From Turicibacter faecis (GTDB taxonomy: Bacteria > Bacillota_I > Bacilli_A > MOL361 > Turicibacteraceae), in the NCBI RefSeq assembly GCF_037076425.1, contig NZ_AP028127.1, positions 1,804,501 through 1,868,500 on the forward strand: a stretch of 64,000 nucleotides of DNA. Reading direction: 5' to 3'. This document shows, piece after piece, positions 8,114 through 33,388 of the stretch. The translations under genes and the position numbers were made by a program. The first letter of the stretch is position 1. Each line of letters begins with the position of its first letter. The notes under the pieces are model-generated. The model had not been told where the DNA came from and did no database searches. It saw nothing but the letters and a program-made list of their open reading frames with translations.

Positions 8114-8150
8114 AAAAAAACTGAGGCTCTATTTATGAGCCTCAGTTTTT
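8114..8150. terminator. terminator overlapping the gerKB stop codon
   Basis: AAAAACTGAGGCTC pairs with GAGCCTCAGTTTTT. The TAG stop of the germination permease (8129-8131) lies in and beside the loop, so the last codons of the gene form one arm of the terminator. Confidence 0.85.
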
Positions 8151-9253: not shown

Positions 9254-9270
9254 AATAAATCACCTACTTT

Positions 9271-10440
9271 CTACTCCTTCAAATTAGCCGCATCACCAAC
9301 AGATGTAATTTCTAATTTAACCTTTACGTCAAACTCTAACTCTGGATAAATGTCTTCCCAATATCCACTGACTTCTGCCCATTTCTTTGGATTCTTTTGA
9401 TGGACCTTTCCACCAACACCGATAATATCTGACGCTAACTCGTTTTGAGTCTTATCAATAAAGGACTGAATATCTTGTTTCAGTTGGTTCCCCAATGCTG
9501 CTTCTAAATCACTCACATTGACAGGATTCATTAAATCTATAGGATACCCATTCTCCATTAAAACTCCTTTAACTGAACAATCTACCATTACCTTATTTTT
9601 TTCTAAATCAGGTTTTATCTCTACTTTCGATTCACGCACCTCATAAGAAAGCTTATATTCATCATCAAGTACTGTTGTCACAACATAACGCTTACTCGTT
9701 CCAACTAATAAATTATAATATTGAGCCTCTTTACTCGTTAAGTATCCAACCAATTGATCCCCTTGAAATGCAGCTAATGAATCAATTTTGAGTTGAGAAG
9801 GCGCCTCCATCTGTAAAACATTTTGAATATCTCCCTCCTCGCTCTTTTCCTTAGAATCAATTGATACACTATTTAATACAATATTAGAGCTTGGATCATT
9901 AACCATTCCACTGACCTGATAGAGGTTATAATTGACTTCTCGTCCCGTACACGTCAAACAGAGATTAGATAACGAATTGAGTTGATTAATCGGAATTTGT
10001 TCACTTGGAGTAAGAACATTCAATACCTCACGGGCCGTCGTATGATTCGCAACGACTAACGTAATATTGGGGCGAATCATCACATTACGTAAGACAAAAT
10101 CAACAACGGGATCAATTCCCGATTGTGCTATATCTTCATTAACCACAATCACACTTAAATGCGGCAAGTACAACACCTTAGCTGTTAGTGAATTTAGTGA
10201 TCGATAAGCATCGAATAACGTCTCACCTTCACCCGAGATTGAAAAAACGGATAACGTATCATGCTGATTCCCGGCAATAGAAGAGGGATTAACAACTTGG
10301 GCCGTCATTAAATACCCATTTTCCGTTTGATCAATCCCAAGACCCGCTACAATTCCAATTTGGCTCATCTCCACTTTATGGCCACATCCACTTAAACTAA
10401 TGGCCATTAACATGACCATGACATACATCAAACGTCTCAC
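9271..10440 (-). CDS. gerKC: spore germination receptor lipoprotein subunit, GerAC/GerKC type
   Basis: The C subunit (Ger(x)C family), a lipoprotein of 389 residues on the outer face of the spore inner membrane. The signal peptide ends in LSGC at residues 16-19. GLGIDQTENGYLMTAQV near residue 34 and the following LTAKVLYLPHLSVIVV are hallmarks of the N-terminal domain. The C-terminal domain is seen at about 220-380. The gene starts at GTG just 2 nt after the TAG of gerKA with a good GGAGGAG, so translation is probably coupled. Confidence 0.9.
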   Translation of the reverse strand: MRRLMYVMVMLMAISLSGCGHKVEMSQIGIVAGLGIDQTENGYLMTAQVVNPSSIAGNQHDTLSVFSISGEGETLFDAYRSLNSLTAKVLYLPHLSVIVVNEDIAQSGIDPVVDFVLRNVMIRPNITLVVANHTTAREVLNVLTPSEQIPINQLNSLSNLCLTCTGREVNYNLYQVSGMVNDPSSNIVLNSVSIDSKEKSEEGDIQNVLQMEAPSQLKIDSLAAFQGDQLVGYLTSKEAQYYNLLVGTSKRYVVTTVLDDEYKLSYEVRESKVEIKPDLEKNKVMVDCSVKGVLMENGYPIDLMNPVNVSDLEAALGNQLKQDIQSFIDKTQNELASDIIGVGGKVHQKNPKKWAEVSGYWEDIYPELEFDVKVKLEITSVGDAANLKE

Positions 10441-10442
10441 GC

Positions 10443-12011
10443 CTACTCCTCCTTCCTTTTTTCCTGATTAAGATTATGACGGACCCGATTCGTCGTTTTA
10501 TAAATTTTTGGACGATACTTCATCCAAGAAAGGGGTAAGCGTAAAAATTGATCTTCCTGATCATGTAAGTTTAATGGCGCCATCGGAGCTAAGTAAGGTT
10601 GATCGAGCGTCGTTAAAGAAGACAAGTGTAAAATCAATAAAATAACACCAATCGTTATTCCGTAAAGTCCAAAAGCAGCTCCTAAAAATAAGAAGGCAAA
10701 CGTTAAAACACGCATCGCATTCGACAAACGGGTACTTGATAAAATAAATCCTGCAATCGATGTAATCGAAACAATAATAATGACAATATACGAAACTAAT
10801 CCTGCTTGAACAATCGTCTGTCCGATAATCAACGATCCTACAATCGTCATCGAATCCCCAACTACACTAGGCTTACGAAGCGCCGCTTCCCGGATAATTT
10901 CAAACAAAATTAACATAATTAATGTTTCAATATATGTTGGAAACGGGTTAGCACTCCGTTGATTAATAATCGTAATCAATAACACCGTTGGAATCATCTC
11001 CTGATGATACGTCGAAATAGCCACGTACAAGCCGGGAACGAGGAGAACGATAAAAAAGGCCGCGTATCGTAATAAACGAGTGACCGTTGCAATAAAAGGT
11101 CGCGAATAATAATCATCCGTCACCTGAAACATCGAAGCAAAATAAGCTGGCCCCGTGGTCACAAAAGGTGAACCATCAACAAAAATCGCAATTTCTCCCT
11201 GCATAAGAGCGGCCGCCGTTTTATCCGGACGCTCCGTTTGAATCAACCGCGGAAATAACGTGATATGATGATCCTCAATTAACTGCATGAGCTCACTCGA
11301 ATCCACAATCCCATCAATATCTAAACTCTCAATCCGTTTATTCACCGTATGAACCAACTCTTTATTCGCAATTCCCTCAATATACGCCACAAAAACATCC
11401 GTCTGAGTCACCGTTCCCACCACATGAGCATCAAATCGCAAATTCGGATCCTTAATTCGCCGACGAAGCGTCGCCGTATTCGTACGAATCGTTTCAACAA
11501 AACAATCTTTCGGACCATAAAGCGACTGTTCCGTCTGTGGCTCGCTAATCGAACGCATTTGCCATCCCTTACAGTCAAACATCATAAATTGGTCGACACC
11601 GTCGACAAGAACAATAATATGGCCGTTAATAAGATTCGTGTAAAGATCCTCGTACGACTGTCCACATTTCGCATCTAACATACTGATTCGAGACTCAAAA
11701 ATCGTCTGGAAAACGCCACAACTTCGAGTATTCGATTCCTTAACTAAAGAAAGATCAATACTTAACACATGAACAATAAACTGTTCAGCTTGGTTCGTAT
11801 CGATAATACCGTCGATTCCTAAAATGGCGACCGAAACATCTTCAGCACCCTTTAATGTCAGCGTGCGAACTAACAAATCGTTGGCGTTTCCTAACCTCGT
11901 TTTAATCGTCTGTAAATTTTCATCTAATGCGTGATGAATTCGATGTGGCGTCGGTTCTGAAACAGGCTTTTTAGTTCCTTTCTTACCCTTAAATACCTTA
12001 AAAATATCCAT
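10443..12011 (-). CDS. gerKA: spore germination receptor subunit, GerAA/GerKA type
   Basis: The A subunit (GerA family), 522 residues, of the germinant receptor that triggers ion release when a nutrient binds. A soluble N-terminal domain (about 30-300) is followed by five to six membrane segments (about 310-470), including SANPFPTYIETLIMLILFEIIREA. The proline-rich LRLPLSWMKYRP near the C terminus is typical. It is the first gene of a three-gene operon in the order A-C-B rather than the A-B-C of Bacillus gerA. Expression is expected from a forespore-specific sigma-G promoter, which I did not confirm. Confidence 0.93.
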   Translation of the reverse strand: MDIFKVFKGKKGTKKPVSEPTPHRIHHALDENLQTIKTRLGNANDLLVRTLTLKGAEDVSVAILGIDGIIDTNQAEQFIVHVLSIDLSLVKESNTRSCGVFQTIFESRISMLDAKCGQSYEDLYTNLINGHIIVLVDGVDQFMMFDCKGWQMRSISEPQTEQSLYGPKDCFVETIRTNTATLRRRIKDPNLRFDAHVVGTVTQTDVFVAYIEGIANKELVHTVNKRIESLDIDGIVDSSELMQLIEDHHITLFPRLIQTERPDKTAAALMQGEIAIFVDGSPFVTTGPAYFASMFQVTDDYYSRPFIATVTRLLRYAAFFIVLLVPGLYVAISTYHQEMIPTVLLITIINQRSANPFPTYIETLIMLILFEIIREAALRKPSVVGDSMTIVGSLIIGQTIVQAGLVSYIVIIIVSITSIAGFILSSTRLSNAMRVLTFAFLFLGAAFGLYGITIGVILLILHLSSLTTLDQPYLAPMAPLNLHDQEDQFLRLPLSWMKYRPKIYKTTNRVRHNLNQEKRKEE

Positions 12012-12072
12012 GAATGACCCACCTACCTTTCTACTATTATCCGTAAACTTAAAAAAGTTATACGTCCATACA

Positions 12073-12117
12073 GAGGATAAATTTCCTCATCCTCCCTGAT
12101 AGGAGGCCCCCCTTTTT
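12073..12117 (+). promoter_or_regulatory. tandem hairpins with T run between ger operon and ClC gene
   Basis: GAGGA/TCCTC (12073-12088) is followed by CCTCC/GGAGG (12091-12106), then CCCCCC and TTTTTT. On the plus strand this looks like a terminator only 40 nt before the ClC start, so it could be a transcription attenuator or a roadblock between divergent genes. No known riboswitch core was found. Confidence 0.35.
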
Positions 12118-12156
12118 TATAAAGAACAAACCATTTAATTTCACTTAAGGAGGAGT

Positions 12157-13713
12157 ATGATGTCATCATTAAAAACACCGTTATCTTACTTAAAACAACT
12201 TAAACTTAAATTAGCTTTTGAGGGAATCCTCATCGGCCTCATCTCAGGTCTTGTCGTCGTCTTTTACCGCCTCATTTTGCAGTATGCGGAGCAGCTAAGA
12301 CAATGGGTTACCAATCAACCGACGCCCTTCGCGTTTTTTGGTTGGTTCATCATCCTCATCCTAGCGGCTCTTTTCGTCGGTCGCCTCATGGTCAAAGAAC
12401 CAATGATCTGTGGGAGCGGAATCCCTCAAGTAGAAGGCGCCTTAGCCAATAAAATTAAAATGAATCCCCTCTCCGTCTTAATGAACAAATTCATTGGAGG
12501 AACGATTTGTATCGGAGCGGGATTATCCGTCGGACGTGAGGGTCCTTCTATTCAACTCGGTGCCGTCGCCGCCCAATGGGTTAGCCGTCTAACCAAACGA
12601 ACTAAGCTAGAAGAAAAGTATCTCTTCTCAAGCGGGGCGAGTGCTGGACTAGCCGCCGCCTTTAATGCTCCACTCGCTGGGGTCATGTTCGCGCTTGAAG
12701 AGGTGCACAAACACTTCTCACCCCTCGTTTTAGTCGGTGCCATGTCCGCCGCGCTAACAGCTGATTTTGTCTCAAAAAACTTTTTTGGTTTAAAACCGGT
12801 CTTCCGCTTTGACCTCATCCATAACTTGCCCCTCCATCACTATGGATGGATTGTCGCCTTAGGACTTTTAACCGGAATTTTAGGCGTCCTGTATAATAAA
12901 ACACTCGCCTCTACGTTAAACGGGTATGATAAACTAACCTTCTTAAAAAAACAGTATCATCCCCTTATCCCCTTCCTCCTTGCGGGGATCCTCCTTTGGA
13001 TCTTACCGGATGTATTAGGGGGCGGGCACGGATTGATTGAAAAATTAACAGCGGATCTCTTTTCAATGAAGACCTTACTTCTTTTATTGACTGTCAAATT
13101 CGCTTTCTCCATGGTGAGCTTCGCGTCTGGTGTTCCAGGAGGAATCTTTTTTCCGCTCCTCGTCCTCGGGGCGCTCACCGGTTCAATTTTTGGCCATCTT
13201 CTCGCAAGCCTCCATCTTGTCGATGAAATCTTCATTCAAAACTTTATTATTTTGGCGATGGCCGGCTATTTCAGCGCCATCGTCCGTGCCCCAATTACCG
13301 GAAGCATTCTCATTGCCGAAATGACGGGATCATTAACAAACCTTCTCCCGCTCTCTCTCACCTGCCTTATCGCCTACACCGTGGCGGAAGGACTGAGAAA
13401 TGAACCAGTCTACGATTTCCTATTACACCGATTACTGCGTGGAAAAAGCAGCCTAACCGTCGGTCAAAAAAATATCCTCGTTGAAATTCCAGTCTTCGCC
13501 GATTCTAGCATGGATGGATGCCTCGTTCGCTCCCTTGACCTGCCAACCGATTGCCTACTCATCGCCATCAAACGCGGAAATGACGAGCTTATCCCACGGG
13601 GAAATACCCAACTGATGGCGGGTGACGACCTCATTATTTTAATGAAAGAAAACTTGGCGGCCACCCTTCAAGAGCACCTAAAAAGTACCTCTCAAAAAGT
13701 TCCCATGTACTAG
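12157..13713 (+). CDS. ClC-type H+/Cl- antiporter with C-terminal TrkA-C domain
   Basis: A ClC chloride transporter of 518 residues. The selectivity-filter motifs are present: GSGIPQ (86-91), GREGPSIQ with the gating glutamate E128, and GVPGGIFFP in the second half. FALEE at 178-182 supplies the internal proton glutamate seen in ClC exchangers, so coupled Cl-/H+ antiport is more likely than a pure channel. The C-terminal 80 residues resemble a TrkA-C (RCK_C) ligand-binding domain rather than CBS domains. Two ATG codons in tandem (12157, 12160) follow AAGGAGG; either could be used. Confidence 0.92.
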   Translation: MMSSLKTPLSYLKQLKLKLAFEGILIGLISGLVVVFYRLILQYAEQLRQWVTNQPTPFAFFGWFIILILAALFVGRLMVKEPMICGSGIPQVEGALANKIKMNPLSVLMNKFIGGTICIGAGLSVGREGPSIQLGAVAAQWVSRLTKRTKLEEKYLFSSGASAGLAAAFNAPLAGVMFALEEVHKHFSPLVLVGAMSAALTADFVSKNFFGLKPVFRFDLIHNLPLHHYGWIVALGLLTGILGVLYNKTLASTLNGYDKLTFLKKQYHPLIPFLLAGILLWILPDVLGGGHGLIEKLTADLFSMKTLLLLLTVKFAFSMVSFASGVPGGIFFPLLVLGALTGSIFGHLLASLHLVDEIFIQNFIILAMAGYFSAIVRAPITGSILIAEMTGSLTNLLPLSLTCLIAYTVAEGLRNEPVYDFLLHRLLRGKSSLTVGQKNILVEIPVFADSSMDGCLVRSLDLPTDCLLIAIKRGNDELIPRGNTQLMAGDDLIILMKENLAATLQEHLKSTSQKVPMY

Positions 13714-20652: not shown

Positions 20653-21207
20653 TTAGATTTCTGTAATCGTGCCATCCTCAGCGACGAAAAGCATCAAAAT
20701 AATGCCATCGCCACCTTCCGTCTCTTGCAATACTTTTGACTTTAAGGCCACGTAATAACCGATTTGATTATCGCCGTAATGTTCGTGATTTTCGTCATAC
20801 ATATAGACAATATCTTCGTCAGATCCATAACGATCCACGGCTAAGGCAACCGCATCAACCCCTGTAAATTCATGGTTATGCTCCTGATCATGAACCTCCA
20901 CTTCGTGTAGCGTTTCTTTTAAAACGTTCAGACGCTCTCGTTGCTCATCGGTTCCCTCATCATCTAACTCGACTAATAATTCGTTTAAAACACCTTTAGC
21001 GGCTGCTAATTCATCGACTCCCACAAGTGCCTCAATATAATTGAGCCCTTCTTCAAGTGAACGCTCGCTTAAATTCGTCCCGTTTTCTGTCAAACGTGGT
21101 CGATGCAAAATATCTTCTTTATGATTATCGTTCTCCCCATCTGTCTCATTTGCACATGCACAAAGTGCGATCATAAGTGCAAGTAACACACTGATTCTCT
21201 TCATCAT
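20653..21207 (-). CDS. hypothetical lipoprotein (acidic)
   Basis: A 184-residue predicted lipoprotein whose lipobox is LCAC after a hydrophobic core. The mature part is strongly acidic, with many Glu, Asp and His. An N-terminal helical half (about 40-110) precedes a compact domain with VDAVALAVDRYGSDEDIVYMYD and YYVALKSKV, a pattern like small outer-surface domains found in Bacillota. The ATG overlaps the stop codon of the gene before it (ATGATGA), with GGAGGG upstream, so the two are translationally coupled. Function unknown. Confidence 0.75.
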   Translation of the reverse strand: MMKRISVLLALMIALCACANETDGENDNHKEDILHRPRLTENGTNLSERSLEEGLNYIEALVGVDELAAAKGVLNELLVELDDEGTDEQRERLNVLKETLHEVEVHDQEHNHEFTGVDAVALAVDRYGSDEDIVYMYDENHEHYGDNQIGYYVALKSKVLQETEGGDGIILMLFVAEDGTITEI

Positions 21208-21713
21208 GATAATCCCTCCATTTCATCTCTTAAGGCGATCAACGTCTCTATTTCTCCCCTAAATAGTTTTAATGATCCCATCCTTTTTTCCACGAAACGA
21301 ATTAACGCAATTAACTCATCATAAGCTGACGTTTTCTCTGCTTCAATGGCTCGGTTAATTTTTTCCTCAAGAGAATTTAATTGAGACCGTACATAATTAA
21401 TGGCCTCATCTTTCACAAAACTTGGCTGACTATCAACTAAGTTTAAATCCGTCCAAGCCAACAGCAGTTTATCCAAGTCCTCTAACTGATCATATTCAAC
21501 CATCTTAAGTAGAGCCTCCCCTTGCTCATGCCAAATCTGATACTTTTTATTTGAACTTTCATCAGTTGCTAACTTTAAAAAACCGACGCCCTCTTGATAG
21601 GATCCGTCTTCAAAAGCCTCCCTCGCCTCTTTAACTGCCTGATTTGCTAGTCCACTATCCCCACAAGCGACCAACATAGCTAAAAAGGTGACAAGCAGAT
21701 AACGCTTCTTCAA
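21204..21713 (-). CDS. hypothetical lipoprotein (helical)
   Basis: A 169-residue predicted lipoprotein with signal peptide and lipobox LVAC (about residues 14-17). The mature protein is almost all charged helix and resembles a tetratricopeptide-like or bundle fold; no family is recognised. The start is TTG, about 7 nt after GGGGGGTG. It forms a two-gene operon with the following lipoprotein, and the 4-nt overlap suggests that both are made in equal amounts and may work as a complex on the outer membrane leaflet. Confidence 0.72.
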   Translation of the reverse strand: MKKRYLLVTFLAMLVACGDSGLANQAVKEAREAFEDGSYQEGVGFLKLATDESSNKKYQIWHEQGEALLKMVEYDQLEDLDKLLLAWTDLNLVDSQPSFVKDEAINYVRSQLNSLEEKINRAIEAEKTSAYDELIALIRFVEKRMGSLKLFRGEIETLIALRDEMEGLS

Positions 21714-21861: not shown

Positions 21862-21898
21862 AAAAAAAGGTGTCTCCTCGTCGAAGAGGAACACCTTT
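21862..21898 (-). terminator. terminator of the exopolysaccharide-like operon
   Basis: AAAGGTGTTCCTCTTCG pairs with CGAGGAGACACCTTT with one mismatch, and a run of T follows on the minus strand. It lies 54 nt after the last gene of the operon. Confidence 0.85.
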
Positions 21899-21951: not shown

Positions 21952-23361
21952 TTAATGTAGTTTATTATGCTTAACACGACTAATTTTCTTCCATTGATGC
22001 TTATGCTTACGATATCCAATCAAAGCACTAAATCGATACAAGGAAATCAATTGTCGATAACCAAAATTCTCTATCAAACTAAATAAAATTAACTTAATTC
22101 GTGCCCGTAACGATAGCGACTCCCTAAACATATACTCCTCGAATTTTATCGCCATAATAGATAAACCCGTATTATAAAAAACATAGATTAACATAAAAGT
22201 TAAAAAGAAGGTCATGTTTAAAAAACCAGCAAAAAAGGCAAGAACAATAATGATAATTCCTAAACTATCAAATACGCATGACATCATCTCATAGATAAAA
22301 AAGTATGTAAAGGAAAAGAATCCCGTTAAGCCGTATTGAGGATTTAATGCCATTTGCCGATGATTAAACATCGAAGTCATTAAACCAATTTGCCACCTTC
22401 TCCTCTGATTCTTCAAATCCTTTAGTTTAGATGGAACTTGAGACCAACAAACCGCATAAGGTTCGTAACTAATTTGATAAGGAATCTGATTTTGGCGATA
22501 AAAAGAATGTAATTTTAATACCAAATCCATATCTTCGCCAATACTTTTAGTATCATATCCTCCAACAGAGATGACGGCATCCTTACGAAAAAGACCAAAT
22601 GCACCAGAAATAATTAAATTACCATTAAATAAATTTAACCAGACCCTCGTATTTAAAAACACCCGGTAATATTCGATGAGCTGCATCATCACGATAAATC
22701 GTTTTGGAGTCAAATATTTAACGACTCGCCCTCTATCTAATATTACCTGGTTAGAAACTTTAATATTACCACCAACAGCTACCGTTCGATTATCCCGATT
22801 AAATGGCATTACAATTTCACGAAGAGAATCATATTGTAAAATTGAGTCGGCATCCAACGACGTAATTAACGGATATCTTGCTAAATTAATTCCCATATTT
22901 AAAGCATCAGCTTTCCCACCATTTACCTTATTAACGAGGGTTAACTTAATCTTCTCATTAATGATTCCCTCATAAATATCAATCTCACTTTGGCAAGGTA
23001 CAACCCTACGAATCGGACGATTGACACGTTTTAACTTAAAATGTTCTTGAACCAAATCACCTGTTCGATCCTTAGATCCATCGTTAATAACAATGACCTC
23101 AAACTCTGGATAATCTAAATATAAGTTAGACTCAATACAATCTATAATAGTCTGTTCCTCATTATAGGCAGGAACCAATATTGATATTGGTAATAAACTA
23201 TCCTCATTCTTTGAATCTATCTCATGTTGATATTTCCGATAAGATTGATTTTTTTCAATAACAAAGATGGCAGAGAGAGTGGAAATAAAAAATATAATAG
23301 CGTAAATGGCAATATATATCATGAAAAAATTATTAATACTATCAACCAAAAACTCTAACAC
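21952..23361 (-). CDS. processive GT2 glycosyltransferase (BcsA/IcaA-like)
   Basis: A membrane glycosyltransferase of 469 residues. An N-terminal membrane segment (10-35) precedes the GT-A domain with VPAYNEEQTI (about 58-67), VINDGSKDRT, the DXD SLDADS near 168, GEDMDL (TED-like acceptor motif) and QRRRW (QxxRW) near 320, the full set for processive beta-glycan synthases such as cellulose, hyaluronan or PNAG synthases. Four C-terminal segments would form the polymer channel. There is no PilZ domain, so any c-di-GMP control must act through another protein. It is the last gene of the operon and starts at GTG. The polymer cannot be named. Confidence 0.9.
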   Translation of the reverse strand: MLEFLVDSINNFFMIYIAIYAIIFFISTLSAIFVIEKNQSYRKYQHEIDSKNEDSLLPISILVPAYNEEQTIIDCIESNLYLDYPEFEVIVINDGSKDRTGDLVQEHFKLKRVNRPIRRVVPCQSEIDIYEGIINEKIKLTLVNKVNGGKADALNMGINLARYPLITSLDADSILQYDSLREIVMPFNRDNRTVAVGGNIKVSNQVILDRGRVVKYLTPKRFIVMMQLIEYYRVFLNTRVWLNLFNGNLIISGAFGLFRKDAVISVGGYDTKSIGEDMDLVLKLHSFYRQNQIPYQISYEPYAVCWSQVPSKLKDLKNQRRRWQIGLMTSMFNHRQMALNPQYGLTGFFSFTYFFIYEMMSCVFDSLGIIIIVLAFFAGFLNMTFFLTFMLIYVFYNTGLSIMAIKFEEYMFRESLSLRARIKLILFSLIENFGYRQLISLYRFSALIGYRKHKHQWKKISRVKHNKLH

Positions 23362-23373
23362 TGCACCGCCCCC

Positions 23374-24465
23374 TTATTGAAAAGATTTTTCCTTTAAGGA
23401 TAATGCATATTGCAAAATATCCCTTGAATAATAATCCTTTGATTGTAAAATATATTCTTTTATTCGTTGATTGATATTAAAGTTACAAAGGGCCATGGCC
23501 GAGTTAAAACGAACATGCCAATTAGAATCACCCGTAGCTATAAATAACTGATTAATAACATCTTCCTCAGAGAAATACTGCAAGGCCTTAGCACTTAACA
23601 CACGGTACTCCCATTCATTATGCTTTAAATAATCTAATAGTATTGATTTACTCTCTAAATTCGGATGATTCGCAAAATATTTGATAATACTTAAACAGAT
23701 TTCCTTGTGAGAATCTCTGCCTTCCGATAAAATTTCACAGAGTTTCTTTTCAACCATTGGACATGGAACAACGGTAAAATACTGAATCAATAAGAGTTGA
23801 AAATCATCTTCAGCCTCTTTAAAGTTTCTTATTAAAAAACGATTTAATTCATCGTAATCTCCACTAAACTGTTGCATAATACCTATTAGCACTTTATTAT
23901 TATATAATTCAAAATCTTTATAGCTACTAGTCAAGGCCTTAGCAAAAATCGAACTATTTCCAATTTGAGCTAAGGAGGTTAAAACGTTCAATTTTAAATA
24001 CATAGAGTTTTTATTCAACTTTTTTAATAACCATTGATTGATAAAGGGTAAATCCATTTGATAGTACCCGAAGAGTTTGGCAAGCTTTAACTCTTCAATT
24101 TCACCCTTTCTCTTATCCAATTTAATCACTCGCTGTAAAAAGCCAATATAAATTTCTACATAGACTTTAAGGATAGGCCTATATTCCTCTATCAGAAATA
24201 ACTCTTCAATTACTCGATTAAATAAATCAAAATAAATATTACTTTTTAAACATTTCTCAGTTTGGTCGATTGTTTCTTGACTTAACCGATTTCCCATCCT
24301 TAATGTATCAAATTGCTCTCTAATTTCAACTTTAAAAGAGGCATGCTTCATTAATTGCTTCTGATGGCGCTGATCCTTTCGAATTCTATAAGATAAGTAA
24401 AGCCTCATACAAAAGATTAAATAAATAAAAAAGGTAATCATTAAGGAAATGATAAAGACCTGCAT
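23374..24465 (-). CDS. membrane-anchored HEAT-repeat-like protein
   Basis: A 363-residue protein with one N-terminal transmembrane helix (about 3-22) and a cytoplasmic, basic helical domain. The C-terminal half shows repeated paired helices such as KSILLDYLKHNEWEYRVL and GDSNWHVRFNSAMAL, typical of HEAT/PBS-lyase repeats used for protein docking. It lies 12 nt upstream of the glycosyltransferase gene. HEAT-repeat proteins often accompany polysaccharide synthases in clusters of this kind, so I infer a scaffold that holds the synthase, but no direct evidence exists. Confidence 0.75.
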   Translation of the reverse strand: MQVFIISLMITFFIYLIFCMRLYLSYRIRKDQRHQKQLMKHASFKVEIREQFDTLRMGNRLSQETIDQTEKCLKSNIYFDLFNRVIEELFLIEEYRPILKVYVEIYIGFLQRVIKLDKRKGEIEELKLAKLFGYYQMDLPFINQWLLKKLNKNSMYLKLNVLTSLAQIGNSSIFAKALTSSYKDFELYNNKVLIGIMQQFSGDYDELNRFLIRNFKEAEDDFQLLLIQYFTVVPCPMVEKKLCEILSEGRDSHKEICLSIIKYFANHPNLESKSILLDYLKHNEWEYRVLSAKALQYFSEEDVINQLFIATGDSNWHVRFNSAMALCNFNINQRIKEYILQSKDYYSRDILQYALSLKEKSFQ

Positions 24466-24480
24466 CTCACCGCGTCCTTT

Positions 24481-26559
24481 CTATTTGTCCCTAAATTCAT
24501 TTTGTAATAGCGTATAGGCAAGTTTTAATCGTGATTTATATGTTGGATTAACCCATGGCATTAAACGATATTTTTCAGATGGTAATCGAACACTCGAATG
24601 ATCTGCTTCCACTACCGTCAATCCAATATTTAAATGATTAATAGACATGGAATGAATTCCAAATCGCTGATAATAGTCGTCATGAATTTTTAAATTAGTA
24701 GGATCACTAAAGTTTAAAAGTCCCCATGGGATTTTTATCTCTATATAGTTATCTCCCACATAATAATTAGCCAGGGAATTAAATTGATTGGAATTCGGAT
24801 TAGCATTCCCCTCAATTAATCGTCCTGCTTCTTGTACAATAGCCTCCTCAAATTCTTTTATTTCCTGATTATATGCTTTCGACTTAACCTCGATTAAAAT
24901 AGGCGTGAACTCATCCATATCCGGAAGAACTTTAATTTCATCGGGATGGATTTGTAAATTCGTTCGCTCCTTTAAAAATTCATACGTGTGATAATAACGT
25001 TGAACTAATAGACGACTTTGATTATTAGGATTAATATTAATGACAAAGTCTACCGGATCTTCAAAGGTCAATCCCTTCTCCGTATAAGATTTAGTTCCTG
25101 AATTAGGAGTCACATCTAAATCAATCCAATAACTTGACTGATTATTTATTTGCTCTTCTGACTGAATAAGAAAAAAGATTCCCTCTTCATCCGTCTTTAC
25201 AGATAAGGTTAATCCATCGTGGGTGGATAAAACATTTTTATCTTTCCACTCATCTATTTGGTGATCAGGATAGTCAGTTGAAGCATCAAAGGTATAAATT
25301 CCCCTCGATTGTAAATCCGTTAATTTATTTGGCCAGTAAGGGCTACGATCGAGGATAACCCGATCAACTGTCGTAAAGGATGTTCGATCCCATCGATCTT
25401 GCCACTCAGACAAACAAGAGCCCAAAATAGATAATTGTCGAAGTGTGCGATAAATAGTAACCAGGCCTTCCGCCTGTTCTCTTTCATTAATCCCTAATAA
25501 CTGTCCCGACATCTCCTCATAAACTACCTTTGCCGAGGGAAGACTATACTCCGCTATCATAATCGGTATTTCATGAAACCTTTGTAAATCCGTTATCACT
25601 TCTCTTATGGACTCTCCCATTTTATCACTATAAACCGGATATAAATAATACGATGCAAAATAGCCACTTTTTAGCTTTTGCGTCGGTTTAATCTCATTTA
25701 AATCAACAACAGGCTTAATATTTCGCTTAGTTGTTTGGCCAATATATTTTTCTGACTCTGCGTTTAATTGACTATTTTTATAAACTAAAAAATCCTCTAT
25801 ATTAGACCCTACGACCGTCACCAAATGTTGAATTCCATAACGTTGAACCTCATAACTAACTAATTTATCCATAAGTTTAGCTAACAATCCCTCAACATTA
25901 GACGCCGAATCCGATGTATAAAAATAATCCCCTTCATACGCGTACGACTCATTCATAATATCCGAAAAAATAACATCCTGATTTGCCCATTCCATACCTA
26001 GACTATATCCTATTAAGTAAGATGAAAGATTCACCCCTTTTTGTAAAGAAACACCAAGATCATTACCTGGATACGCCCCGCCGTACATAAAATCAATGAT
26101 TTTCTTTATCTTACCCATATAAGACTGCTCTAATTGCTGAAGATCGGCACCATCCGCTAATGCAACGTCATCCATATAAATTCCTTGTAAAAGATAAAGA
26201 GGCTCCTGCCGGTTTTCATTAAATTTGTCCAATGCCTTGTAAAAATTTAGTGGCATTAAATCTGGTACCCTTAAAACCGTTACGCCTAACTCTTGAATTA
26301 ACTGCAACCACTCTAAATAAGTTTCTTCTCCTAAATCTACTTCATTAGGAAAACTACCAGGAAGTGCTGAAGTAACATTCATTCCAATAAATTGAAAAGG
26401 AGTCGTTTCTTTATTAAATGAAGTATATAGTTGCCCATCTCTAATAGTAAATGGGCTCTCATCACCTCCACCATTATTTAAAAAGGGAGGAATAATCCTA
26501 AGGAATATTAGAAAAAAGAGGGCAAAAACAAGGGTACTCAAAATAAGAAATCTTTTCAT
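24481..26559 (-). CDS. membrane-anchored extracellular TIM-barrel protein, probable glycoside hydrolase-like
   Basis: A 692-residue protein with an N-terminal signal anchor (5-25). Residues 40-400 have the layout of a clan GH-A TIM barrel: FIGMNVTSALPGSF, GVTVLRVPDLMPLNFYKAL, LIGYSLGMEWANQD and IMIAEYSLPS, whose Glu may correspond to the nucleophile. The C-terminal 270 residues are beta-rich, like a carbohydrate-binding sandwich. The position between CotH and the synthase suggests a role in trimming or handling the nascent polymer, as cellulases do in cellulose operons. The catalytic pair is not certain, and it may be an inactive sugar-binding homologue. Confidence 0.6.
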   Translation of the reverse strand: MKRFLILSTLVFALFFLIFLRIIPPFLNNGGGDESPFTIRDGQLYTSFNKETTPFQFIGMNVTSALPGSFPNEVDLGEETYLEWLQLIQELGVTVLRVPDLMPLNFYKALDKFNENRQEPLYLLQGIYMDDVALADGADLQQLEQSYMGKIKKIIDFMYGGAYPGNDLGVSLQKGVNLSSYLIGYSLGMEWANQDVIFSDIMNESYAYEGDYFYTSDSASNVEGLLAKLMDKLVSYEVQRYGIQHLVTVVGSNIEDFLVYKNSQLNAESEKYIGQTTKRNIKPVVDLNEIKPTQKLKSGYFASYYLYPVYSDKMGESIREVITDLQRFHEIPIMIAEYSLPSAKVVYEEMSGQLLGINEREQAEGLVTIYRTLRQLSILGSCLSEWQDRWDRTSFTTVDRVILDRSPYWPNKLTDLQSRGIYTFDASTDYPDHQIDEWKDKNVLSTHDGLTLSVKTDEEGIFFLIQSEEQINNQSSYWIDLDVTPNSGTKSYTEKGLTFEDPVDFVININPNNQSRLLVQRYYHTYEFLKERTNLQIHPDEIKVLPDMDEFTPILIEVKSKAYNQEIKEFEEAIVQEAGRLIEGNANPNSNQFNSLANYYVGDNYIEIKIPWGLLNFSDPTNLKIHDDYYQRFGIHSMSINHLNIGLTVVEADHSSVRLPSEKYRLMPWVNPTYKSRLKLAYTLLQNEFRDK

Positions 26560-26575
26560 AATCTCTCCTCCTCTC

Positions 26576-28072
26576 CTACTCTGCCCATTTTAAAAGACTA
26601 TCAATATTTTTATCAATCCAAGCACCACGCTCACGAATAAATAGCTTAAGCTTCGCAATCTCCTCATCATAATTATTAGCTCGATTTTCAACTTCGGCAG
26701 TATATTGTGGATGTTCCCTAAAAAAATTCAACAATGCGTCAACATCATTTTCGTAAGGTCGGATAATGGAGTAATACTTTTTAAGCATTTCAGATTGATT
26801 ACATAACTCAACAGGCCACTTTTCAAAATTACGCTCAATCGCTTCCCCCAATTCACTGACATAATCATCAATCTGTTGAATAAGATAATCATCACTTAAA
26901 TAGGTTAAGCGAAGTTGGTGGTAACGGCTAATAACTTGATTCACAAATTTTTTATCTTTTAATAACTCACTAAACCACGCTGTTTGAGGCATATAAAACC
27001 CCGTTTCGTCATAATAAGGGAATAAATGCGTACTATTTCCCATGGCTGAGTCAAAATCCCAAACAGGACCCGCTTTAATCTTCTCTCCATAATCCTTGTG
27101 TAAGTACGTACTAAAAATACCCGCATCTGTATTCTTAAAAAATTCATTTATAATAAAATAATCGACAAATGAATCCACATCGATATAGGCTGCATACCCC
27201 TCTTGCGGGTCATCGAAACGATCTGAATACAAAACTCGTTCAAATTCACTAACCGTTTGGGTAATATAATTTTTTTTCTCGTCTGTTAAATTTGTTTTAG
27301 GGTACTCTACAACCATATTGTAATCGTAGAGATATGTTTCAAACCCATAGTTATCTAATAGTATATCTGTAAGCTTTAAACGATTTCTCGCTACAATAAA
27401 ACTTGTTTCAGAAGAGGCCGATTGAGTTTTAGAAATATTAATTCGTTTATCATGGCGTTCTATCTTTTCAACCAGTAAATAAATCCCCTTATAGTGCTGT
27501 GAAGAAAGTGGCTGATTATCATCAACTAAGTAAACCTCACAAAATTTAACACGGGGGGCGTATTGCATGATTTTACCAGAAATATCATAGGCTAATTTAT
27601 TTCGCAATAAAGACTGGTCTTCAAAAGAGGCATTTAGAATCCACTTTGCACTTTTAGGCATTCCTAATAAGGACGCCTTTTTTTCATCCCCTTTTTTATT
27701 TAATAACGTCAAACTATACTGCTTTTTGGGAAGAAGCCGAGACGTATTTCCCCTCACGCCAATATCAACCATTGTCTCAACCTTTGCCTTTAAATCTCCA
27801 TTTTTAAAGTTTTCAGGAAGGTAAAGACTAAACTCGGCTAAAATGCTCTCTCCCAAACTCTCTCCCTTTCTTACGTAATGAATTTCTTCACCATTTGTAT
27901 CTATTACAACAATCGGCAAATCCGAATGTTCTAGGACATCACCAGGTAAGCCTAAAGTTGATTTAATTTGCTTCTGTTTTTTCTGATCTAATTTATCAAT
28001 ACTTTCGACCATCACCAAGCAACTTATCATTAAAAATAAAAGAACCATCATAAATGCGACTAATTTTTTCAT
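26576..28072 (-). CDS. CotH family kinase-like protein, membrane anchored
   Basis: A CotH-domain protein of about 498 residues; spore CotH phosphorylates coat proteins with ATP, and other homologues are surface proteins of unknown substrate. An N-terminal membrane helix is followed by the CotH core: GVRGNTSRLLPKKQYSL, LLVEKIERHDKRI, DYFIINEFFKNTDAG and GPVWDFDSAMGN, which carry the lysine, the Asn/Asp and the DFD-like metal motif. I chose ATG 28072 because AGGAG lies 7 nt upstream; the longer start overlaps the preceding gene without a ribosome-binding site. It lies inside a VTC-DUF4956 operon, not near coat genes. Confidence 0.88.
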   Translation of the reverse strand: MKKLVAFMMVLLFLMISCLVMVESIDKLDQKKQKQIKSTLGLPGDVLEHSDLPIVVIDTNGEEIHYVRKGESLGESILAEFSLYLPENFKNGDLKAKVETMVDIGVRGNTSRLLPKKQYSLTLLNKKGDEKKASLLGMPKSAKWILNASFEDQSLLRNKLAYDISGKIMQYAPRVKFCEVYLVDDNQPLSSQHYKGIYLLVEKIERHDKRINISKTQSASSETSFIVARNRLKLTDILLDNYGFETYLYDYNMVVEYPKTNLTDEKKNYITQTVSEFERVLYSDRFDDPQEGYAAYIDVDSFVDYFIINEFFKNTDAGIFSTYLHKDYGEKIKAGPVWDFDSAMGNSTHLFPYYDETGFYMPQTAWFSELLKDKKFVNQVISRYHQLRLTYLSDDYLIQQIDDYVSELGEAIERNFEKWPVELCNQSEMLKKYYSIIRPYENDVDALLNFFREHPQYTAEVENRANNYDEEIAKLKLFIRERGAWIDKNIDSLLKWAE

Positions 28073-28082
28073 CGTCATGCTC

Positions 28083-28751
28083 CTAGCCAATGGTTTCCCC
28101 ATTTTGCGCCACTATATTTACACTTTGAACCCCCTCAATTCGATAGAATTGATCAAGCATTGTTTGTTGCGCCTCATTTTTTAACGTGATTTGATAAACC
28201 ATTTCAATGCTTTGCGTCGTTGTATTTTTACCACGTAATTGCGCCCCTTTAAACTGTTTAAACAAATAAGACATAACCTCCTGTTCACAACGGTTTTCTC
28301 CTCGAATAATCAATAAATACCTATTTTCTACACCAAACTTTCCAAAACTAAACAAAATGAGAACAGTGGCTAGAAAAATAGATCCCATTAAAGCTATAGC
28401 ATAGTTTTGCGTTCCTGCACAAAGTCCAATTCCAATACACCAGAAAATGTAGGCTGTATCCCGGGGATCCTTAATAGCCGTTCTAAAACGTACGATCGAT
28501 AGTGCCCCGACCATCCCAAGGGATAGTGAGATATCACTTTTAATAACAATCATTACCATCGTTGTCACTAATGTTAACATGACTAAGGAAACATTGAATT
28601 TACGGTTATATAGTACCCCACTGAATGTAAACTTATAAGTCCAAAAGACAACCATCGATAATAATAAAGCAATAATTAAAATCTCGAATGCCTCAAATAA
28701 GTTTACCTCTCCACTCCGCGTCACCAAATATTCATACAAAGTCTCTTTCAT
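28083..28751 (-). CDS. DUF4956 membrane protein
   Basis: A 222-residue protein with an N-terminal block of about four to five transmembrane helices and a C-terminal cytoplasmic domain (about 145-222) with a ferredoxin-like alternation of strands. The block SIVRFRTAIKDPRDTAYI (about 84-101) is the signature of DUF4956. The family is found next to VTC and CotH genes in many Gram-positive bacteria, and its function is unknown. Here it lies 18 nt downstream of the VTC gene. A membrane partner for the VTC enzyme is a reasonable inference. Confidence 0.88.
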   Translation of the reverse strand: MKETLYEYLVTRSGEVNLFEAFEILIIALLLSMVVFWTYKFTFSGVLYNRKFNVSLVMLTLVTTMVMIVIKSDISLSLGMVGALSIVRFRTAIKDPRDTAYIFWCIGIGLCAGTQNYAIALMGSIFLATVLILFSFGKFGVENRYLLIIRGENRCEQEVMSYLFKQFKGAQLRGKNTTTQSIEMVYQITLKNEAQQTMLDQFYRIEGVQSVNIVAQNGETIG

Positions 28752-28769
28752 TTTTCTTTCTCCTAAAAT

Positions 28770-29465
28770 TTATGCTAAATACTGATCAAACAATGACCTT
28801 GAAACGCAATACTTACTCAAAGATTGATTAATCGTATCGCGCCCCCGTAAAACTTCCGCAATCCAACAAAATAAATCACCATTAAACTTAACCTCTAAAA
28901 TGGCATGATACGTTGTAAACGCCGGTACCATCGGAATATTTTCCGAAAATATATCAAAATTTGTTTCACTACTTCTAATGTTACTATCTAACGTAAGTCG
29001 AATGTTATTCTCCTCATGATAGAAGGCACGACGATCGTAATCAATCAGAACAACAGGTCGGTATTGCCCTAGTGTCATAATATTGTAAATCGTTTGGGCT
29101 GTTTTCTCCTTATATTTTAAAAGAACGTCGTATTGACAATTAATAAGCGATCTGGCGTCATCCGATGAAATCCAAACCGTTTCTTTCACCTGATTAACAT
29201 TAATTTTTCGTTTCAGTTCTAATTTCACTCGTTTTGTATTTACATCGTATAAACGAAGACGGATTTTTTTTCTCACCTCTTCACCGTTCATTTTACTGTA
29301 ATAATCGTCATCCGTAAAAGTATCGAAATATAGGCTGCGAATCGTATATCCCCCGTTTTTTGAATGTGGGTCACTTTTCAAAATTTCGTTAAATAAATTT
29401 AAGTAACGATAATAGTCCGCATCACTAATAGAATATTTAATCTCCCGCCTATTAACAACAATCAA
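28770..29465 (-). CDS. VTC-domain polyphosphate polymerase-like protein
   Basis: A 231-residue VTC domain (CYTH/triphosphate tunnel superfamily). In yeast Vtc4 this domain makes polyphosphate from ATP. The basic tunnel residues are present: IRSLYFDT (44-51), KKIRLRLYD (about 66-74), VKLELKRK near 80, VLIDYDRRAFY, IRLTLDSNIRS, ILEVKFN and LSKYCVSR near the C terminus. No membrane segment is present, so it would act at the inner face, perhaps with DUF4956. The start is TTG, about 8 nt after GGAGGAG. Activity on nucleotides or another anionic polymer cannot be excluded. Confidence 0.88.
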   Translation of the reverse strand: MIVVNRREIKYSISDADYYRYLNLFNEILKSDPHSKNGGYTIRSLYFDTFTDDDYYSKMNGEEVRKKIRLRLYDVNTKRVKLELKRKINVNQVKETVWISSDDARSLINCQYDVLLKYKEKTAQTIYNIMTLGQYRPVVLIDYDRRAFYHEENNIRLTLDSNIRSSETNFDIFSENIPMVPAFTTYHAILEVKFNGDLFCWIAEVLRGRDTINQSLSKYCVSRSLFDQYLA

Positions 29466-29489
29466 AAAACCACTCCTCCACTAATCACT

Positions 29490-30278
29490 TTATAAATCTT
29501 TTAATTTAGTAAACTTAAACTCCCTCAGTATAATACTTATAGGTTCTGATAAACCTTCACGTTGAACAGCCTCCTCATCCCTTAAATAGACATTTAGCCG
29601 AAATCTCATCTCATCACCTTTGGCTATCCCCCGCGGATACTCCCATGTCGCAAGGGGTTTATGATTGGAATCCCCCATATCGTAGATTTCAATTCTAACC
29701 TTATCAGTAAAATTATCGATACGATAACGTGTCATTCCACCCTTTTCACCTCTATTTAAATCTAATTTCTCAGTTGGACGATTAGAATTCCCCCTTTTAT
29801 AGTAAGGTTGTACAACAAATTGATAATTTCCCTCCCTTAGCCAAGGACTCTCATTAGCATTATCTTCCTCATCCCATGACGAAAACTCAATATCTACCTC
29901 ATTTTCATCATCAGCATATAAAAACGGACTGACAATCACTTCAGCAGGAATCCGATCGACACCTCCCTCTAAGACAAACTCATATCGACCTAAGCCTTTA
30001 GCATCAATACTAATAATCTCGGCAGCTAAAATCTGATTATTTTTTTCTATTAGCTGCAAGTGTATCCCATCCTTACTTTGAAACACCACATCCTCATCAT
30101 CTGAAAACACATTCAATCGAGGTCCTACACGCTCGCCTTGCGAATCCTTCACCGCAAAGGTATAATTATTTAATTCATATCGCGTTTTATAATGAGAAAA
30201 TTCATCTCCTTTCAAATGTTTACATCCTGTTAAACACAAGATAGACAATAACACACCTCTTATGAACCTTTCTTTCAT
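29490..30278 (-). CDS. hypothetical lipoprotein, first gene of the VTC/CotH/GT2 operon
   Basis: A 262-residue predicted lipoprotein with lipobox LTGC (about residues 16-19). The mature part is beta-rich with two to three Ig-like or jelly-roll sections, for example YELNNYTFAVKDSQGERVG and YQFVVQPYYKRG, which suggests an extracellular binding domain. No family is recognised. It is the promoter-proximal gene of the seven-gene operon (gaps 11-31 nt), so it is likely the outer-face partner of the polymer machine. Two ATG codons follow GGAGGAG; the second has the better spacing. Confidence 0.7.
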   Translation of the reverse strand: MKERFIRGVLLSILCLTGCKHLKGDEFSHYKTRYELNNYTFAVKDSQGERVGPRLNVFSDDEDVVFQSKDGIHLQLIEKNNQILAAEIISIDAKGLGRYEFVLEGGVDRIPAEVIVSPFLYADDENEVDIEFSSWDEEDNANESPWLREGNYQFVVQPYYKRGNSNRPTEKLDLNRGEKGGMTRYRIDNFTDKVRIEIYDMGDSNHKPLATWEYPRGIAKGDEMRFRLNVYLRDEEAVQREGLSEPISIILREFKFTKLKDL

Positions 30279-30330
30279 CATCTCTCCTCCCTCGTATAAT
30301 AAGTTTATGCCCTTCTTTATGGGCGTTAAT

Positions 30331-30713: not shown

Positions 30714-32996
30714 CTAAGGTTTAATTAAATTAATAAAATTTTGCTCAGACAATGGGCGTGAAAAATAATACCCTTGAAACAACTCACATCCAATTTTAGT
30801 GAGTGTCTTAAATTGAAACTCCGTCTCAACTCCTTCAACAATTACCCCCATATTTAACAAATCAGCAATTTTATTAATATAACTAATAATCATAAAATCA
30901 CTATTATCAGTATTTGATAAAAAGACCCTATCCAATTTTAAGAAATCTATTGGATATGTTTTAAGGTAACTAAATGATGAATAACCTGTTCCGAAGTCAT
31001 CTAAGAGAATTTTACATCCCTTTTGACGTAAGTTATGAAGGTTTTGAGTAAGTGCTTCACTTTTTTCAAGAAGAACGGACTCTGTCAACTCGAAAGATAA
31101 TTTTTCAAAAGGAATTTGGTACTTTTCAACCATTGCCTCCACACAATTAAAGAAATCAACCTCCAACAATTGAATTGGAGAAACATTAATACTAATCTCA
31201 ATAGAACTTTGATGATCTCTAATAAATCGGCAAACTTCTTCAATAACCCAACATCCAATTGGAATGATTTCCCGTGTTTCTTCAGCGTAGGAAATAAAAT
31301 CTTGCGGAGATACGTTTCCAAGTTTTTTATTTTTCCACCGAAGTAAGGCCTCCGCCTTAACAATCCGTTGTTGCTGGTCTATAATCGGTTGATAAACAAT
31401 CGTTAATTCATCCTTTAAAAGCGCCGTACGTAGTTCATTCTTTAAATTTTCAATATAAACTAAATCTTTGTATACGTCGTCATTAAAGAAAATCAATTTA
31501 TCGCGTAAGCCAGCGCTTTTATTTTTATACATCATTAAATCACTTTTTTGAATTAACTCCGAAACTTCTAATCCATCTCTAGGAAACACAGCGGCCCCAA
31601 TAGAGAATTCAATAAAAACCTTTACGTCTGGCATAAGTTCCACTGGCAAATGAAAGAGAGGAACAATTTTATTGCGATAATAAAACTCAAACTCAGCGTC
31701 ATTCGTATAATTCTTATAAATAATAACAAATTCATCGCCAGAATATCGTGTAACAATTCCACGTTTCCCCAATGCCCTTTGAGTAATATGGCTAAATCGG
31801 ATAAGTAATCGGTCTCCAATGGTGTGCCCAAAAATATCATTTACCATTTTAAACTTATTCATATCCACGAAAATAAGAGCAAATGGTTGATTTTGTTCAA
31901 TTAATTCCTCGCAAAGTAAATGCAGTTTCTTACGATTAGGTAGTCCAGTCAGAGAATCATAGTAAATAAGTGATTCTATTTTATCATCAAATGTTTTCCC
32001 TAAAACATCTGCCATTAACTCCAATTGAACAAATTCATTTTTTTCATTTAAAAAATCATTATCCTGATTTAACTGAACTATAATTTTCTTTAATTTTCTA
32101 ATCGATTTTAGCGCTGGTTCAAACGCAATGTAAATAGCCACAATCAGACAGATTGCCCCAAAAATTCCTACAGAGACAATGACAAGTTCGATTACCTCAA
32201 CACTTCCCGCAATCAAATCGTTCTGTTTTATACTCTCCTTATCAAATGAAAACATCAATTTATAATCGGGTAATAACCCGTTCAGTTCCCTCGTATAATA
32301 ACCCTTTTGAATATTTTGAATCATAAATGATTCACTTTTTTCATCTTCTTTTAAAAACTCGACCTCCAGCCGGCCACTATAAAATGTATTACTGACGTAG
32401 TCAAGAAACGAATCGGCATAAATATCGATAATAATGACCCCTAACGGTTCTTTCTTATTAGTTCCGTAGACCAATGAACCAATCGAAATTGTTTCTTTCC
32501 CTGTAATGAAATCACTATAAATTCCTGTCACAAAACTTTGAGATTCCCTATGTCCCTTTGCCTCCTTTACCCACTCGCGATTAAAGAAATCATAATTTTC
32601 ATATAAAGTACCATTACTAAAAGCGTAATGTCCCGGGAAACTTACAATCCCTATTGGGCTTTTAATAAATGGCATAGCCTCTAAAATATCATTATACAGA
32701 TTCTCTGACCAAGAAATAACTTCTTTATCTGCTTGATCTAATTGCTCAACACTTTTATTCCCCTCTAAAATACCAATCACTTGTTTATCTGTTGCTATTG
32801 TTTCAACACTATCCTTAAGAATTTCGAAATCTTTTCTTAATTGATGACTGACCTGATTATAATGAACATCTGCTGTTAGGGTAATAACACTATCTAATAT
32901 TTTACCAATAAGTATATTGGTCGATAAAACAAACATAAGCATAAATAATAAGGAAATAGTAATTAATTTATAATTAATTTTTTTTGATAAATCCAT
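30714..32996 (-). CDS. dual GGDEF-EAL c-di-GMP enzyme with extracellular sensor domain
   Basis: A 760-residue membrane protein. A membrane helix (about 8-30), an extracellular CACHE-like domain (30-265) and a second helix (about 270-295) lead to GGDEF and EAL domains. The cyclase has DSLTGLPNRKK, DMNKFKMVND and RYSGDEF; serine at the first position is compatible with activity, and no RxxD inhibition site is seen. The phosphodiesterase is complete: EALLRW, NVSP, ELTES, DDFGTGYSS, KLDR, EGVE and QGYYFSRP. It could make or break c-di-GMP in response to an external signal. ATG 32996 is preferred; GGGGAGG lies 12 nt upstream. Its position just before the polymer operon suggests control of it. Confidence 0.93.
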   Translation of the reverse strand: MDLSKKINYKLITISLLFMLMFVLSTNILIGKILDSVITLTADVHYNQVSHQLRKDFEILKDSVETIATDKQVIGILEGNKSVEQLDQADKEVISWSENLYNDILEAMPFIKSPIGIVSFPGHYAFSNGTLYENYDFFNREWVKEAKGHRESQSFVTGIYSDFITGKETISIGSLVYGTNKKEPLGVIIIDIYADSFLDYVSNTFYSGRLEVEFLKEDEKSESFMIQNIQKGYYTRELNGLLPDYKLMFSFDKESIKQNDLIAGSVEVIELVIVSVGIFGAICLIVAIYIAFEPALKSIRKLKKIIVQLNQDNDFLNEKNEFVQLELMADVLGKTFDDKIESLIYYDSLTGLPNRKKLHLLCEELIEQNQPFALIFVDMNKFKMVNDIFGHTIGDRLLIRFSHITQRALGKRGIVTRYSGDEFVIIYKNYTNDAEFEFYYRNKIVPLFHLPVELMPDVKVFIEFSIGAAVFPRDGLEVSELIQKSDLMMYKNKSAGLRDKLIFFNDDVYKDLVYIENLKNELRTALLKDELTIVYQPIIDQQQRIVKAEALLRWKNKKLGNVSPQDFISYAEETREIIPIGCWVIEEVCRFIRDHQSSIEISINVSPIQLLEVDFFNCVEAMVEKYQIPFEKLSFELTESVLLEKSEALTQNLHNLRQKGCKILLDDFGTGYSSFSYLKTYPIDFLKLDRVFLSNTDNSDFMIISYINKIADLLNMGVIVEGVETEFQFKTLTKIGCELFQGYYFSRPLSEQNFINLIKP

Positions 32997-33388
32997 TATT
33001 TGGCTTCGCCTCCCCTCAACTAGCCATTTTGTTATCAAAACGTGAGTTAATTATCATGAAAATTATATCATATATTGATCTCTCAATTATACGTTTTTTT
33101 TACTTCTCCCCTGTATTTTTCAAATCAATAACTTATCTTTTCAAACAATTTATCATCCCACAGAAATTATCTTAGTATTCGTCAATAAACGACACTTATA
33201 ACTCCTAATGTAGAAACTTATAAAGGTAAATGCCGATAGATGCTTTTAACTATCTCCTGAATTCCCCGATTATTTTAAAACGTCATTATCGATTTTCCTG
33301 TCTCTTGAAAGGATAAATTCCCATTTAAATTTAATAGTAGTTTACCCCTGTTAATCTAGTCCACGCTATGTAAAATATGAATGATATG

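Follow-up and report, generated by a model that had tools for sequence, protein, structure and literature searches.

The 64,000-nucleotide (nt) stretch of Turicibacter faecis contig NZ_AP028127.1 analyzed here (the window) is part of a complete 2.43-Mb Turicibacter genome and carries an operon of seven minus-strand open reading frames (ORFs) at 21952-30281, as the initial annotation of this DNA had described. Six of these genes, in the order VTC-DUF4956-CotH-TIM-HEAT-GT2, form a conserved unit, and this unit consists of two modules, TIM-HEAT-GT2 and VTC-DUF4956-CotH, a division newly described here. Very probably the set assembles a cell-surface sugar polymer, and it includes phosphate-handling enzymes of its own. 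More specifically, the operon is read with moderate confidence as a two-module, synthase-dependent surface polysaccharide system with an extracellular phosphorylation cassette. The observations behind this reading are the gene set, its order, its conservation, its modularity and the intact catalytic residues of the VTC and CotH proteins.

The order and strand of the six genes recur in 17 diverged loci, so the co-localization in relatives that had been proposed as a check was strongly borne out. A search with the family of the 692-aa (amino acid) TIM-like protein covered 273 genomes of one other Bacilli family and gave 13 carriers, whose neighborhoods were then read. Further six-gene loci were found in an uncultured Bacilli metagenome-assembled genome, in another Turicibacter (L013), on a plasmid of Planococcus maritimus XJ11 and in a human-gut contig recorded as 'Bacteriophage sp.' In loci from outside Turicibacter, GT2 and VTC are about 40-45% identical to the window proteins, and the HEAT and TIM-like proteins about 20-30%. 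The arrangement is not due to chance, because order and strand recur in 17 loci that mostly have about 20-45% protein identity to the window. In addition, the six genes show correlated pairwise distances (r 0.48-0.90), with at most 7 of 2000 permutations giving values as high. Among all six-gene loci, the lipoprotein is found only in the window, in L013 and in L006 (Turicibacter sp.), which encodes a TIM-like protein 100% identical to that of the window. The conserved unit is six genes and not the seven first proposed, and the lipoprotein is confined to Turicibacter.

Several loci depart slightly from the plain arrangement. A transposon-type ORF (TnpB-like, by eye) separates VTC from DUF4956 in L074, a deacetylase gene lies between the same two genes in L068, a short divergent ORF stands where the HEAT gene is expected in L073, and the TIM gene is broken into two ORFs in L072 and L080. 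The operon is also patchy within Turicibacter: two complete relatives lack the TIM gene, and the operon of genome G004 lies about 1 Mb away from the genes that flank it in the window. A scan of viral contigs for relatives found none. The 'Bacteriophage sp.' record (L084, MT836222.1) contains this bacterial operon along with EAL and GGDEF genes and is probably a mislabelled bacterial contig.

The two modules also occur apart. TIM-HEAT-GT2 is found without the cassette on a Deinococcus plasmid, in Paenibacillus cellulosilyticus and in genome G411 (L078), where a 320-aa ORF with no Pfam match occupies the HEAT position. VTC-DUF4956-CotH is found with Pel, with a GT2 synthase of the window type, or alone. 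Among 392 genomes of the phylum, DUF4956 was found in 72. VTC adjoins it in almost all regions examined, and CotH or the carbohydrate-binding family Cthe_2159 often supplies the third gene beside the pair. The cassette adjoins PelF/PelG-like genes in L051 and L060. In a tree built from VTC plus DUF4956, the 17 six-gene loci all group in a single clade (support 0.991). When this tree is midpoint-rooted, the half with this clade also holds the Pel-linked and nearly all other CotH-linked pairs, and the other half holds the Cthe_2159-linked pairs. A 2025 study stated that the three-gene arrangement is absent outside Pel (PMC12345266). The cassette was seen here with the window-type synthase or alone, and therefore that statement is too narrow. 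Two further arrangements were observed. The genome of the window has a second VTC-DUF4956 pair, followed by a secreted Cthe_2159-family protein (L008, C1:1044000-1063999, at 8933-12576 of that locus). In L028 (2210-11193), VTC-DUF4956-Cthe_2159 adjoins BcsB, a BcsA-like GT2 and a GGDEF cluster, which is possibly a third synthase type beside VTC-DUF4956.

The catalytic residues of VTC and CotH in the cassette are almost invariant. The VTC family profile matches yeast Vtc4 (PDB 3g3q) at 1e-17. The VTC protein itself scores 132 bits against a Pfam VTC cut-off of 23. We take the Vtc4 active site to be K200, R264, R266, K281, K294, Y359, R361 and R373. The window equivalents are K10, R69, R71, K85, K94, Y143, R145 and R156; the residue types agree, with one constant offset. 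Across 72 homologues, whatever their context, these eight residues hardly vary, and neither do E191, K193 and K218. From what is known of the family, the VTC protein would make polyphosphate from ATP. PPK1 (PF02503) was not found in the window genome and is present in three other Turicibacter genomes. VTC proteins are therefore the only polyphosphate-polymerase candidates of these two families in the window genome. By hydropathy, DUF4956 has several transmembrane helices and a cytosolic C-terminus, and CotH has a single N-terminal membrane anchor, which suggests that its catalytic domain lies outside. The CotH family profile matches PDB 5jd9 at 2e-24, although a PDB search with the single sequence gave no match. 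CotH residues D326 and D349, 23 residues apart, match D228 and D251 of B. subtilis CotH, which is inactivated by D228Q and by D251A (PMC7821199). D326 is kept in 34 of 35 CotH proteins and D349 in all 35. The operon's CotH, the sole CotH of the window genome, is presumably a kinase like its family. The match of the VTC site to Vtc4 and the kept CotH aspartates support the initial picture of a surface-polymer machine with a processive GT2 and phosphate-related enzymes.

The GT2 protein contains D94, DAD170-172, GED275-277 and QRRRW319-323, all kept in 14 orthologues, and has membrane helices at both ends. Pfam agrees with the identities first given to the GT2 (with its QxxRW motif), HEAT, CotH, DUF4956 and VTC proteins. 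The best NCBIfam match of the GT2 is PgaC_IcaA (TIGR03937), and it additionally matches Chitin_synth_2. Two specific identities were rejected. A poly-N-acetylglucosamine (PNAG) synthase of the PgaC/IcaA type was rejected at 162.7 bits against a cut-off of 422.3, and a cellulose synthase (BcsA, TIGR03030) was rejected at 40 of 699 bits, with no BcsB in the operon by Pfam. The 'beta-glycan' product named initially is unproven, since the GT2 is nearest PgaC/IcaA yet far under the cut-off. The polymer is probably built from an amino sugar such as N-acetylglucosamine (GlcNAc). The clues are that PgaC/IcaA is the nearest synthase and that a deacetylase is present inside the L068 operon and, according to PMC11677781, in the Clostridium perfringens locus NELoc-2. 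The HEAT protein has an N-terminal membrane helix followed by a basic stretch (by hydropathy), its distances track those of the GT2 best (r=0.90), and it is probably a cytoplasmic scaffold of the synthase.

The TIM-like protein has a single N-terminal anchor that, by hydropathy, places the remainder outside. Its sequence suggests that it is probably a clan GH-A TIM barrel with a C-terminal beta domain. The family profile has a match to a GH2 catalytic domain, PDB 9fz9 (E=7e-4), that spans the nucleophile strand; an AlphaFold model from a two-sequence alignment had a predicted local distance difference test (pLDDT) score of 35. E337 is a candidate catalytic residue, and E190 is probably another. 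Both glutamates are present in 12 of 18 family members, including the window copy, and at least one is lost in L037, L074, L076, L077, L079 and L082, which form one clade of the VTC-DUF4956 tree. Thus the 'polymer-trimming hydrolase' of the initial annotation does not stand as a general role, and in those six loci binding or guiding is as likely as hydrolysis. Two kinds of additional gene were seen beside other clusters. A secreted purple-acid-phosphatase-like gene immediately follows GT2 in L069 (2502-4367) and L070 (13337-15208). A small secreted TIM-like protein (mostly about 280-365 aa, motif D[VI]EPY/H) adjoins the cluster in L007, L069-L071 and L079-L082 and is absent from the window operon.

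Two published systems resemble the operon. First, the necrotic-enteritis-associated locus NELoc-2 of C. perfringens (Lepp et al. 2010, PMC2879425 Table 4) encodes proteins of 230 (VTC), 222, 497 (CotH), 685 (hypothetical), 377 (HEAT) and 466 aa (GT2), and the window proteins have 231, 222, 508, 692, 363 and 469 aa in identical order. We take the window set to be the same system, likened by domain order and length only. The 222-aa protein of NELoc-2 was annotated as tubulin/FtsZ and is read here as DUF4956, and the GT2 was annotated as a chitin synthase. Unlike NELoc-2, the window has the lipoprotein and a GGDEF-EAL neighbor; SigI/RsgI-type regulators, tested for as a NELoc-2-type feature, are absent beside the window. 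All necrotic-enteritis strains of a later study carried NELoc-2, and an extra VTC pair upstream of it (CP4_0460/0461) was less transcribed in vivo. No gene-function study of NELoc-2 was found in the literature.

Secondly, Gram-positive Pel loci carry CotH, a polyphosphate polymerase, DUF4956 and DUF4832 as accessory genes (PMC7112168, PMC12345266). As in the window, the same three families are contiguous there and adjoin an exopolysaccharide synthase, and in the bifidobacterial version a GGDEF/EAL gene also adjoins. However, the synthase in the window belongs to GT2 and has HEAT and TIM-like proteins as partners, and PelF/PelG and DUF4832 are absent. Profiles of PelF and PelG found two proteins each, only in L051 and L060, and the DUF4832 profile gave only two matches, in the seed's own Pel-type loci; none of these is in the window. 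The window operon was rejected as a Pel locus because it lacks PelF/PelG. S. intermedius has more Pel without the DUF4956 gene and less without CotH, and it aggregates less in both cases (PMC12345266). The set is not as novel as first supposed, because its order was published as NELoc-2 with no function assigned and CotH-VTC-DUF4956 was published as Pel accessory genes with mutant phenotypes. The statement that no experimentally described system has this exact set appears to be still true.

Other systems share single features. PgaC/IcaA PNAG synthases, the best family match of the GT2, have the same motif set, but the window operon has no PgaB/IcaB-type deacetylase. In yeast, VTC polymerization is coupled to passage across the membrane. 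The window VTC has active-site residues in common with the Vtc4 polymerase domain of that complex, but it lacks the SPX domain and the fused membrane part; our guess is that the separate DUF4956 is the equivalent of that membrane part. The Lactobacillus acidophilus gts operon (PMC6123363) has a GT2 linked to cyclic di-GMP (c-di-GMP) and a membrane partner, as is probable for the window, and the portion of that source consulted mentions no VTC, DUF4956, CotH or TIM-like gene.

A mechanism can be proposed for the two-module system. As expected of its family, the GT2 would polymerize a nucleotide sugar, for which an amino sugar such as GlcNAc is the likeliest candidate, and extrude the chain, while the membrane-anchored HEAT protein would support it from inside and the anchored TIM-like protein would handle the emerging chain outside. 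The cytosolic VTC would make polyphosphate from ATP, again by analogy with its family. More speculatively, DUF4956 might couple the VTC product to the membrane or carry it across. Extracellular CotH might then attach phosphate either to the polymer or to a partner at the surface, the choice of target being speculative, and polyphosphate could conceivably be its phosphate donor. A bolder proposal, offered with low confidence, is that VTC-DUF4956-CotH is a portable extracellular phosphorylation system in which VTC polyphosphate passes through DUF4956 to the secreted CotH kinase, which phosphorylates exopolysaccharide made by at least two unrelated synthases. If this were true, the cassette would be a bacterial counterpart of the secretory-pathway glycan kinases. 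In the main reading too, such a supply of phosphate would explain extracellular kinase activity despite the lack of available ATP there. The operon makes concrete the question of the phosphate donor of an extracellular kinase and shows the cassette to be a portable module with conserved active sites. It also joins three separate threads: NELoc-2 from necrotic-enteritis strains of poultry, the genes that accompany Pel in Gram-positive bacteria, and CotH kinases.

Several points weigh against the proposed mechanism. First, S. intermedius without the VTC gene still aggregated and still had Pel (PMC12345266). Secondly, VTC-DUF4956 pairs about equally often with Cthe_2159, which is not known as a kinase, and therefore the role of the pair is not only to serve CotH. 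Third, the clues to the polymer conflict, as a GH16 gene in L073 favors a beta-glucan. Fourth, no biochemistry for any member of the exact six-gene cluster was found in the literature. Lastly, the system is present without any GGDEF match in genome G543, which is 98% complete, and therefore c-di-GMP is not obligatory.

One alternative, possible though less likely than the main reading, is that the substrate of CotH is not the glycan but a protein: the synthase, the TIM-like protein, the lipoprotein or some other protein of the surface. Its phosphorylation would regulate or mature the machine, with VTC-DUF4956 as a local phosphate or energy sensor. Two coat proteins, CotB and CotG, are substrates of characterized CotH, regulation via protein phosphorylation was proposed in the Pel study, and TIM distances track CotH (r 0.75) better than VTC or DUF4956 (0.50 and 0.48). 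However, no CotB/CotG-like partner with Ser/Lys/Arg repeats was seen by eye among the cluster genes, and the trio accompanies unrelated synthases (Pel and the window-type GT2), a pattern equally compatible with a glycan or a general target at the surface. It is doubtful that VTC-DUF4956 makes and exports surface polyphosphate for Ca2+ bridging or as a matrix tether, with CotH or Cthe_2159 as binders or anchors and CotH repurposed as a non-kinase. The exchange of CotH for carbohydrate-binding Cthe_2159 and the VTC active site, invariant in every context, are consistent with this, but retention of both catalytic aspartates by CotH would be unexpected in a mere binder. A plain beta-glycan operon (PNAG-, chitin- or glucan-like), with phosphate genes that serve only housekeeping phosphate balance, is unlikely: the PgaC/IcaA match (163 bits), the Chitin_synth_2 match and the chitin synthase annotation in NELoc-2 favor it, whereas the tight fixed order, the co-divergence and the dedicated VTC-DUF4956 clade argue for functional coupling. 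A chance neighborhood of unrelated genes is refuted by the gene order shared by 17 loci, which include chromosomal ones and one on a plasmid.

Control by c-di-GMP was considered for the two-module system. GGDEF or EAL genes adjoin 6 of the 17 six-gene loci (the window, L007, L037, L068, L069 and L084), and in genome G375 the sole GGDEF gene found lies directly upstream of VTC. This adjacency is suggestive of c-di-GMP control but is not proof, as the carriers include GGDEF-rich genomes. In Turicibacter the adjacent GGDEF-EAL protein, overlooked in the initial annotation, probably tunes the system as a c-di-GMP regulator. A universal role for c-di-GMP was rejected, because only some clusters have GGDEF/EAL neighbors and G543 has none by match. 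By profiles, RsgI anti-sigma genes were not found beside the window or any six-gene locus. They do adjoin 8 of 16 CotH cassettes that belong to neither a six-gene nor a Pel locus (L041, L050, L053, L057, L062, L063, L064 and L066), six of which also have a SigI-like sigma gene.

The features of the locus are given in Table 1. Intergenic spacings in the operon are 24, 18, 16, 15 and 12 nt. The gaps of 11-31 nt reported initially hold only with a later CotH start; with the first ATG as the start, CotH and DUF4956 overlap by 20 nt. The terminator was correctly placed and reads GGTGTTCCTC-TTCGAC-GAGGAGACACC-TTTTTTT from about 21898 to 21862. The GGDEF-EAL gene lies 432 nt upstream of the operon on the same strand and is possibly a separate transcription unit. 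No riboswitch was found upstream of the operon by Rfam, and no Pfam family matched the 692-aa TIM-like protein or the lipoprotein.

Table 1. Features of the operon and its upstream neighbor, in window coordinates.
Feature	Coordinates	Strand	Evidence
Intrinsic terminator of operon	21862..21898	-	Stem-loop + T7, -17 kcal/mol
GT2 processive polysaccharide synthase, 469 aa	21952..23361	-	Pfam PF00535 5e-27
HEAT-repeat protein, 363 aa	23374..24465	-	Pfam HEAT_2 2.6e-8
TIM-like membrane-anchored extracellular protein, 692 aa	24481..26559	-	Family profile vs PDB 9fz9
CotH-family kinase, 508 aa	26576..28102	-	Pfam PF08757 1e-60
DUF4956 membrane protein, 222 aa	28083..28751	-	Pfam PF16316 2e-13, hydropathy
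VTC-domain (polyphosphate polymerase family) protein, 231 aa, soluble, TTG start	28770..29465	-	Pfam PF09359 3e-38
Lipoprotein, 263 aa, lipobox LTGC, first gene of operon	29490..30281	-	Turicibacter-specific
GGDEF-EAL protein, 774 aa, extracellular dCache-like sensor	30714..33038	-	Pfam GGDEF 6e-31, EAL 4e-66

Two small lipoprotein-like genes without a family match lie just past the terminator (20653-21713). Farther away in the window, at 8129-12011, three genes resemble, by eye, a GerA-type spore-germinant receptor operon.

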